From Pseudomonas quebecensis (GTDB lineage: Bacteria; Pseudomonadota; Gammaproteobacteria; Pseudomonadales; Pseudomonadaceae), in assembly GCF_026410085.1 (NCBI RefSeq), contig NZ_CP112866.1:4649001-4713000 (forward strand): a DNA stretch of 64,000 bases. The letters run 5' to 3'. Below are positions 7,225 through 8,881 of the stretch, in pieces. Position 1 is the first letter of the stretch. Every line of letters begins with the position of its first letter. Under the pieces are notes generated by a model, which saw nothing but the letters and a program-made list of their open reading frames with translations, had not been told where the DNA came from and made no database searches. The translations under genes and the position numbers were made by a program.

Positions 7225-7476
7225 CTAGCGGCTTGTGGCTGTCGCTTGCCCGACACCACTGTGCACACGATCTGCCAGTAACTGCGCCAGCTCGATCAAC
7301 TGCGCAACGCCCAGTAATTCCTCGCGTTTCATGCCCTCCAGATCAAAAGCCAGATCGCAACTCAGCGCATTGGCCGAGGCGAGTGTTTCGCTGAGGTTGA
7401 CCAGCAGGTCTTCGGTGCTGATGCCATCGGCCACGGTGAACAGCCGGACGGGGGGATTGGGGGTGGGTTTGATCAT
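7225..7476 (-). CDS. Small DUF6124-type protein
   Basis: An 83-residue acidic, helical protein: MIKPTPNPPVRLF followed by TVADGISTEDLLVNLSETL and ASANALSCDLAFDLEG. This pattern (short Pro-rich start, FxVxxGxSxEDxL, then a helical tail) matches a small Pseudomonas-specific family called DUF6124 (earlier DUF3077); function unknown. The ATG at 7476 follows TAAGGAGCTTCACA, a strong ribosome site. The frame stays open upstream for about 64 codons, but that part is a structured leader (see 7480-7600) and I do not include it. Confidence 0.8.
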   Translation of the reverse strand: MIKPTPNPPVRLFTVADGISTEDLLVNLSETLASANALSCDLAFDLEGMKREELLGVAQLIELAQLLADRVHSGVGQATATSR

Positions 7477-7479
7477 TGT

Positions 7480-7600
7480 GAAGCTCCTTAATCTAAGTGG
7501 AGCTGCCATTGATCGCCGCGACGCGATGGGGGTGGCAGCTGTGCGCAGGTTCGCGGACCGGAGATTAAGGAAGCCGGCATACCCGAAGGTATCCCGCGCA
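7480..7600 (-). promoter_or_regulatory. Structured 5' leader that can sequester the ribosome site
   Basis: On the minus strand the leader of the DUF6124 gene has nested perfect stems. TCCTTAATC (7571-7563) pairs with GATTAAGGA (7493-7485), which contains the Shine-Dalgarno AAGGAG. Inside it AGCTGCCA (7540-7533) pairs with TGGCAGCT (7508-7501), and inside that ATCGC (7527-7523) with GCGAT (7516-7512). Upstream, ATACC-TTCG-GGTAT (7592-7579) is a hairpin with a C(UUCG)G tetraloop. The pairing predicts control of translation by unfolding. Confidence 0.65.
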
Positions 7601-7803
7601 CAGCCACCATAGCGCCACACAGTAGACGATAAAAAAGCGTCAACTGAAAGGAGGCAATGCTTAATCAATCCGGGCCGCGACGCCCGTCCGCTGCGTTTGC
7701 AGCGGTGTACGGAGACTAGAGACCGAGTGTCCTAGGGACAACCTCAAATCCTTGTCGGAAATTTCTGCTTGTACGAATAACCAGCCAAACGGCCAGCGAC
7801 CAA
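7600..7803. other. Gap with no recognisable gene
   Basis: About 200 bases between the structured leader and the palindromic repeat array. It holds a TTGACG hexamer on the minus strand near 7640 that may be part of a promoter for the gene at 7225. No coding signal that I trust. Confidence 0.4.
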
Positions 7804-8567
7804 GATCGTTCCCACGCTCCCGCGTGGGAATGCAGCCCGTGACGCTCCGCGTCACCTGTGCGCAGTAGTCGAAACTTGCAGCGCTTGGCGGGACGCGGAG
7901 CGTCCCAGGCGGCATTCCCACGCAGAGCGTGGGAACGAGGTTCATCGGCTTCTGAGCGTCGATCGTTCCCACGCTCCCGCGTGGGAATGCAGCCCGTGAC
8001 GCTCCGCGTCACCTGTGCCCCGTAGCCGAAACTTGCAGCGCTTGGCGGGACGCGGAGCGTCCCAGGAGGCATTCCCACGCGGAGCGTGGGAACGAGGTTC
8101 ATCGGCTTCTGAGCGTCGATCGTTCCCACGCTCCCGCGTGGGAATGCAGCCCGTGACGCTCCGCGTCACCTGTGCGCAGTAGTCGAAACTTGCAGCGCTT
8201 GGCGGGACGCGGAGCGTCCCAGGCGGCATTCCCACGCAGAGCGTGGGAACGAGGTTCATCGGCTTCTGAGCGTCGATCGTTCCCACGCACCCGCGTGGGA
8301 ATGCAGCCCGTGACGCTCTGCGTCACCTGTGCCCAGTAGCCGAAACTTGCAGCGCTTGGCGGGACGCGGAGCGTCCCAGGAGTCATTCCCACGCAGAGCG
8401 TGGGAACGAGGTTCATCGGCTTCTGAGCGTCGATCGTTCCCACGCTCCGCGTGGGAATGCAGCCCGTGACGCTCCGCGTCACCTGTGCGCAGTAGTCGAA
8501 ACTCGCAGCGCTTGGCGGGACGCGGAGCGTCCCAGGAGGCACTCCCACGCAGAGCGTGGGAACGATC
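7804..8567. repeat. Tandem array of five 157-bp palindromic elements
   Basis: Units begin with GATCGTTCCCACGC at 7804, 7961, 8118, 8275 and 8432, so the period is 157; the last ends with GGGAACGATC at about 8567. Each unit has terminal inverted hairpins (TTCCCACGC / GCGTGGGAA) and internal palindromes (GTGACGCTCCGCGTCAC and GGGACGCGGAGCGTCCC), joined by a GAGGTTCATCGGCTTC spacer. Units differ by a few bases. Reading frames through it are artefacts of the repeat. The same element occurs at five other places in the window. Confidence 0.92.
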
Positions 8568-8593
8568 ACAACTTTGAAAAAAAGGAGTAGCTC

Positions 8594-8881
8594 ATGAATG
8601 AATTCACTGACTTCGACGTCGCAGAGCACCTAAAAACCCCCGAGGATATGGCCGAATATCTTGAAGCGTGCTTCGAAGAAGATACGGGTGACGGCCTGCT
8701 GATCCGTTCAGCACTCAACAACATCGCCCGCGCCCAAGGCATGACCCAAGTAGCCCGCGACGCCGGCCTCGGCAGAGAAAGTCTGTACAAAGCCCTCTCC
8801 AGCACTGGCAATCCCGAGTTCGCGACTATCATGAAAGTCATGAAAGCGCTGGGCCTCAAGCTTCACGCCACGGCGATCTGA
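8594..8881 (+). CDS. Putative addiction-module antidote protein, orphan
   Basis: A 95-residue protein with an N-terminal acidic segment (DFDVAEHLKTPEDMAEYL) and a C-terminal XRE-type helix-turn-helix (MTQVARDAGLGRESLYKALSSTGNPEFATIMKVM... region, residues about 50-88). This is the architecture of HigA-like antidotes that neutralise RelE/HigB-type toxins and repress their own operon. AAAGGAG precedes the ATG. In this family the toxin gene normally lies directly upstream on the same strand; here that place is taken by the repeat array and no toxin frame is found on either side. Confidence 0.85.
   Translation: MNEFTDFDVAEHLKTPEDMAEYLEACFEEDTGDGLLIRSALNNIARAQGMTQVARDAGLGRESLYKALSSTGNPEFATIMKVMKALGLKLHATAI

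Follow-up and report, generated by a model that had tools for sequence, protein, structure and literature searches.

A C4-type antisense RNA module in the leader of a Pseudomonas quebecensis DUF6124 gene, and its relatives with near-private pairing codes across the genus

C4 RNA is a textbook case of phage immunity: in phage P1 it keeps an anti-repressor silent. The CI immunity RNA of the satellite phage P4 is a short antisense RNA that is processed from its own leader, where target sites flank it on either side, and it acts by an early stop of transcription. For P1, C4 is described as being excised by RNase P, acting in trans and blocking translation (PMC5320573, PMC8198154, PMC12197685). The prediction of C4 motifs in Pseudomonadales goes back to Weinberg et al. 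2010 (PMC2864571, as told in PMC5320573). The Group 1 C4-like sRNAs of Acinetobacter baumannii (PMC5320573) are similar to the RNAs described here in being numerous within a genome (21 in the group), in having a variable a' loop and in their proposed phage origin; the passages on Group 1 in that paper name no neighbouring target gene and suggest that the RNAs act on incoming phages or on bacterial transcripts, whereas for most C4s of Pseudomonas a matching target is part of the leader itself.

The IsrK-orf45-anrP arrangement of the Salmonella prophage Gifsy-1 is comparable too, with a terminated leader RNA in front of a translationally controlled ORF and an anti-repressor. IsrK is described as activating translation of the downstream anti-repressor in trans (PMC4825925), which would fit titration of a C4, but the terms 'C4 RNA' and 'phage P1' are absent from the main text of that paper. 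Literature searches for C4 together with Pseudomonas, and separately for DUF6124 or DUF3077, which covered mostly main texts outside subscription journals, returned no report of a link between C4 and DUF6124, nor of the genes that C4-like RNAs control in Pseudomonadales. The statement of the preliminary description that no such switch is known for this family thus agrees with the searches as far as the gene family is concerned, but the RNA class itself has long been known; what is new here is the target gene DUF6124 and the scale of the C4 array. DUF3077 is mentioned on another subject, in furfural-evolved P. putida, where a one-base insertion in the DUF3077 pseudogene PP_RS01475 is said to restore the reading frame (PMC9630843).

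The DNA analysed, called the window throughout, is a stretch of 64,000 nt of Pseudomonas quebecensis (GCF_026410085.1, NZ_CP112866.1, positions 4,649,001-4,713,000 of the forward strand). The leader and the DUF6124 gene are read on the minus strand, and coordinates are window positions (Table 1). The gene has a DUF6124 (PF19619) score well above the cut-off, and the leader matches the C4 family over the complete model. In the P1 record, C4 scores 68.8 bits and c4-a1b1 51.0 bits, and the order is a1, b1, C4 (77 nt), a2, b2 and start of icd. The window has the same order, from the promoter via a1, b1, C4, a2 and b2 to the start codon, as well as the same distance between promoter and a1 and a b2 site that lies over the ribosome site. 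The start of C4 (TAT followed by GGTGG) is as in P1 and, by analogy, the mature RNA probably reaches from about 7532 to 7608 (77 nt). Unlike the C4 of P1 and P7, which belongs to the immI operon and controls icd and ant in a phage, the window C4 is followed by DUF6124 and is situated beside cobalamin genes, with cobK adjacent; this cobK neighbour is kept in a 90% identical homologue (genome G017). A further difference is the number of copies: the P. quebecensis genome has 19, with 18 distinct a+b pairs. A novel riboswitch or thermometer was rejected as an explanation, as the leader is a known phage P1/P7 immI-type antisense module.

Table 1. Features of the leader and of the DUF6124 gene in the window, with the evidence for each (cut-offs of Rfam families are gathering cut-offs)
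Feature	Position	Strand	Evidence
Putative -35 box TTGTCC of the leader promoter	7736..7741	-	Majority consensus over 111 units; position as in P1
Putative -10 box TAGTCT	7713..7718	-	Same consensus
c4-a1b1-like target element	7667..7719	-	RF03163, 43.0 bits, E 3.2e-9, below cut-off (46.7)
a1 target site GTCGCGG	7675..7681	-	6 bp TCGCGG (7675-7680) complementary to a'
b1 target site GATTAAG	7660..7666	-	7 nt complementary to b'
isrK-like stretch, including U6 run 7631-7636	7631..7706	-	RF01394, 33.3 bits, below cut-off (50)
C4 antisense RNA	7528..7614	-	RF01695, 82 bits (cut-off 45), E 3e-16, model 1-87 complete
C4 hairpin P2 with UUCG loop	7578..7593	-	Sequence
C4 loop b'	7562..7573	-	Between CCGG arms 7574-7577 and 7558-7561; 10 nt complementary to b2
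C4 loop a', CCGCGAA	7550..7556	-	6 nt match to a1 and a2
Target hairpin T1, a2 (TCGCGG, 7516-7521) mostly in loop	7512..7527	-	Folds in isolated target
Target hairpin T2 AGCUCC/GGAGCU, b2 (7485-7494) largely in loop	7482..7504	-	Folding
DUF6124 gene, 83 aa, ATG 7474-7476	7225..7476	-	PF19619, 84.3 bits (cut-off 27)

The putative promoter was derived from a consensus upstream of a1 (TTGNNC-N17-TANNNT, majority over 111 units, with T at -60 in 77%): the -35 box starts 60 nt before a1 in this consensus, in the window and in the annotated promoter P1c4 of phage P1. A generic promoter scan of the window leader stretch returned no site. A second copy of the target is present upstream of C4 by complementarity (a1 and b1); the window matches to c4-a1b1 and isrK are both below their gathering cut-offs, which counts against a C4 module. 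The isrK family overlaps a1/b1, and its match is above the cut-off in another locus (L095). Unlike IsrK, the window leader has no recognisable terminator: a terminator scan of the leader, the isrK-like stretch included, found no terminator-like site.

The preliminary description had reported three nested stems, the outer one pairing the Shine-Dalgarno (SD) region 7485-7493 with 7563-7571, preceded by a C(UUCG)G hairpin. Each of these complementarities is real: the hairpin is P2 of Table 1, the outer stem has 10 bp (7562-7571 with 7485-7494) and is thus 1 bp longer than described, the middle stem has 7 bp (7533-7539 with 7502-7508) and the inner stem has 5 bp (7523-7527 with 7512-7516). The region 7460-7620 folds with -69.1 kcal/mol, compared to a shuffle mean of -52.5 kcal/mol (z -4.33), and beats 200 of 200 dinucleotide shuffles. 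When combined, however, the nested stems do not correspond to the fold predicted at rest: enforcing them on 7462-7614 yields -54.7 kcal/mol, 6.9 kcal/mol worse than the minimum free energy (MFE) structure (-61.6 kcal/mol), in which the upstream part is closed on itself and the SD is in a local hairpin (AGCUCC/GGAGCU). From these models, the pairing is better read as that of an antisense RNA with its target than as one static nested structure: the outer stem is the antisense contact b'-b2, the inner stem is the hairpin that displays a2 and the middle stem pairs the 3' arm of C4 with the spacer. Duplex energies of the window loops are -10.6 kcal/mol for both a'-a2 and a'-a1, -15.3 kcal/mol for b'-b2 and -6.5 kcal/mol for b'-b1.

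The predicted accessibility of the SD within the whole leader is flat, with 0.32, 0.31, 0.30 and 0.30 at 20, 30, 37 and 42 °C. Of the modes of operation suggested earlier for an RNA switch at this place (temperature, protein or small RNA), the small RNA is supported by a leader that holds both a C4 and its target sites, but temperature is not supported by the modelling; an RNA thermometer, for which the SD should open over the physiological range, was rejected on the same models. It is very unlikely that the switch operates in cis only, with the upstream copy hiding the SD of the same molecule until heat, a protein or a ligand opens it. The complementarity is real and close by, and a high local concentration could put pairing in cis first, before processing; this explanation is nevertheless at odds with the energetic cost of the nested fold and with the unchanged modelled accessibility between 20 and 42 °C, and it leaves the second matching a1/b1 copy and the full match to the C4 family unexplained.

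We propose that one promoter (7713-7741) transcribes a1/b1, C4, a2/b2 and the DUF6124 gene and that, by analogy with P1, RNase P would excise C4 from this transcript. Free C4 would expose the loops a' (7 nt) and b' (about 12 nt), and these would contact a2 and b2, each displayed in a small hairpin of the mRNA. Since b2 overlaps the SD, C4 would then block ribosome entry in trans. The upstream a1/b1 would be a second C4 site and may serve as decoy or as early-stop signal. In the window, the loops are complementary over 6 and 10 bp, respectively, to a2 and b2, which surround the ribosome site of the gene that follows, and when the target is folded in isolation the SD (AAGGAG, 7484-7489) is within the T2 stem and overlapped by b2. 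Among 107 distinct targets with exact a2, a set that excludes the window with its a2 match of 6 of 7, a2 is within a predicted hairpin loop in 70 (shuffles 10.8%) and b2 in 67 (shuffles 21.2%); both sites are in hairpin loops in 52 targets, and a stricter hairpin-loop test for a2 is passed by 23. The P1 target has no T1 hairpin under the same folding, which is a point against this model. Two loop-loop contacts are the likely first step of C4 binding.

All 19 C4 matches of the P. quebecensis genome are above the cut-off, as are 7 of 17 c4-a1b1 matches and 16 of 17 DUF6124 matches. A C4 directly precedes 16 of the 17 DUF6124 matches on the same strand; the one without is L045 (1907152-1907334). 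The genome has one DUF3077 gene (1122913-1123137), with none of the 19 C4 matches near it. Three of the C4s are not followed by a DUF6124 match. One of them, L010, belongs to a P4-like island that also carries KilA-N and DUF927 genes; L018 precedes a different small protein, which has no Pfam match; and L024 has lost its a2/b2 targets and the start of the gene. The C4 of L010 (L046:5011-5307) is followed by an ORF of 52 aa, and similar small ORFs are found behind many C4s in IMG/VR contigs. In L009 (583050-583416), a frameshift interrupts the DUF6124 gene within a C-rich tract close to the start; slippage might be frequent in the PNPP-coding C runs of this family.

For the comparison of pairing codes, L025 and L026 are identical, leaving 18 non-identical C4s, in which the a' loop takes 13 forms and the a+b combination 18. 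The a' loop finds its best or tied match in its own a1 in 18 of 18 units and in its own a2 in 17 of 17 (L024, which has no target, was dropped). Judged by complementarity, b' discriminates much less than a': the own b2 ranks first, alone or tied, for 11 of 17 units, the own b1 for 9 of 18. In L015, b' pairs poorly with its own b2. With a and b added up over the downstream targets, 16 of 17 C4s fit no other target as well as their own, with L015 as the exception. None of 20000 re-pairing permutations reached the observed mean for a-a1, a-a2, b-b1 or b-b2, with the kinship of the units uncorrected.

Among the window leader and four homologous leaders, a', a1 and a2 are invariant and there is consequently no covariation at the a sites, which does not favour control by C4; the b sites do vary. 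In L285, b' and b2 have changed together: its own duplex has -17.2 kcal/mol, the window b' on the L285 target -3.8 kcal/mol. The b' of L282, in contrast, fits the window target (-14.5 kcal/mol) as well as its own (-13.6 kcal/mol), a further point against the C4 module. L284 has apparently lost b2, SD and start codon.

The best 80 of 241 DUF6124 relatives in named genomes were kept and are all from Pseudomonas, which is therefore the genus referred to here. Of these loci, 62 have a same-strand C4 upstream of the gene (20, 14, 15 and 13 in batches of 20). For the remaining 18, a separate C4 profile gave no match at E 0.01; one of them, L107, has only 121 bases of upstream DNA. These 18 loci, and the one DUF6124 match without C4 in P. 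quebecensis, count against the C4 module. The match without C4 in P. quebecensis (L286:7123-8237) is divergent from an HTH/S24 repressor gene and has a PrrF RNA match alongside; in the phage record EU982300, a DUF6124 gene with C4 is divergent from prtR. Across 40 genomes of the genus, C4 is found in 36 (667 matches, 0-42 per genome, with 82 candidates scored per genome), DUF6124 in 32 (468 matches) and DUF3077 in 30. The numbers of C4 and DUF6124 matches correlate over the 40 genomes (Spearman 0.85), with a surplus of C4 in some, such as G009 (38 versus 2).

Pairing in the genus was analysed with 100 C4 units from outside the P. quebecensis genome, taken from among the matches listed, which have 23 different a' loops. 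Exact matches (7 of 7) to the own a2 are present in 93 units, to the own a1 in 95 and to both in 91, and at least six contiguous pairs are formed with the own a2 in 98 and with the own a1 in 99. Between units of different a', an exact a'-a2 match occurs in 15 of 9186 pairs and six contiguous pairs in 454 of 9186, and the codes are therefore near-private rather than absolute. The own a2 is best or tied in 94 of the 100 units and the own a1 in 95, the own b2 in 37 and the own b1 in 23; this untidiness of b', in the genus as in P. quebecensis, argues against the C4 reading. None of 5000 permutations reached the observed means, those of b2 and b1 included, again with kinship uncorrected. In the 13 genomes with at least four of these units, every a+b combination differs within its genome, and the 85 sites of 80 IMG/VR loci, picked out by C4 pattern, include 80 with an exact a2 and 75 with an exact a1. 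Compensatory change among leaders had been named at the outset as the test of the pairing; run as a comparison of own with foreign pairing, it supports the pairing, by the sums of a and b within P. quebecensis and by the exact a2 matches across the genus. In two loci (L291 near 11089 and 11441, L299 near 9827 and 10180), two C4s are about 350 nt apart and the first has no matching a2.

Because of the RF01695 match, the P1-like order of the parts with its 60-nt spacing, the matched codes, the association with DUF6124 and the joint change of b' and b2 in L285, we consider it very probable that the leader is a C4-type antisense RNA module that controls translation of the DUF6124 gene.

The window gene and three homologues are all intact, with dN/dS of 0.20-0.33 between the window gene and the others and of 0.20-0.39 over all six pairs, indicating purifying selection. 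It is highly improbable that the locus is a decayed phage remnant with no present function: broken units do exist, namely L024 and L284 with their losses and the frameshifted L009, but selection on the intact genes, as well as matched loops that are kept across the genus, speak against decay. DUF6124 may be a small protein that is required under particular conditions only. A close homologue is PFLU_0601 in P. fluorescens SBW25. Its predicted structure is a two-helix hairpin, to which no convincing structural relative was found, and DUF6124 and DUF3077 form one superfamily (hhalign 99.4%).

Type I toxins are short and hydrophobic. A pair of this kind, with a DUF6124 protein that inhibits growth, similar to the action of P1 Icd on division, and with C4 as the antidote RNA, would be compatible with a C4 module. 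In line with this idea, each genome encodes many small paralogues, most of which have their own antisense RNA, and the P1 counterpart icd is annotated as division inhibitor, but the predicted two-helix hairpin is unlike a type I toxin and we regard such a pair as unlikely.

Behind 86 of the 100 genus C4s there is an ORF of at least 38 codons; at E ≤0.01, 40 of the 86 downstream proteins match DUF6124, 15 DUF3077 (overlap with the former being possible), two Bro-N and one QslA. PADLOC gave no match for any of these 86 proteins. The two BRO-N anti-repressor genes are directly behind C4 (L147:737-1261 and L149:26-550), which is the classical phage arrangement. Chromosomal C4s could mainly be an archive for defence, acting in trans on incoming phages or satellites with C4-controlled anti-repressors, with DUF6124 as a passenger. 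C4s of the same genus do head BRO-N genes and small genes of P4-like islands, and the a' loop TCGCCAA is common to chromosomal L018, BRO-N units and island-type units; still, such an archive is very unlikely, given that the adjacent own target is the best for 16 of 17 own C4s, that DUF6124 genes are under purifying selection and that PADLOC found no match.

Of 9 QslA homologues in the 40 genomes, 5 (L273, L277, L279, L280 and L281) have a C4 408-436 nt upstream of them, with a short leader ORF and a second ORF between them, a layout like icd-ant of P1; by this analogy, QslA would be part of a C4-controlled operon. A wider and distinctly tentative idea is that Pseudomonas may have domesticated a phage immunity RNA into a genus-wide set of near-private antisense switches, dozens per genome at most, each guarding one small helical DUF6124 or DUF3077 protein. 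These proteins could be anti-regulators that bind transcription factors and disarm them, like Ant in P1 or QslA acting on LasR; this part of the idea comes from the company of the genes, with BRO-N and QslA behind C4 and a DUF6124 gene without C4 divergent from an S24-type repressor. The a1/b1 decoy could set the threshold for release. Most C4s of Pseudomonas have a neighbouring gene and a readable pairing code, and the function of hundreds of unexplained genes (468 matches to DUF6124 across the 40 genomes) thereby becomes testable. In a single genome, the near-private set, with 16 of 17 C4s best for their own target, is a natural study of how antisense specificity diverges after duplication, and RNA switches for use as parts could be drawn from it.

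The window also has a tandem repeat with a period of 157 bp (7804-8574) immediately upstream of the leader, which gives sub-threshold microRNA matches in Rfam. It is followed on the plus strand by an ORF of 95 aa (8594-8881) with a match to a probable addiction-module antidote family (PF21716, 106 bits).
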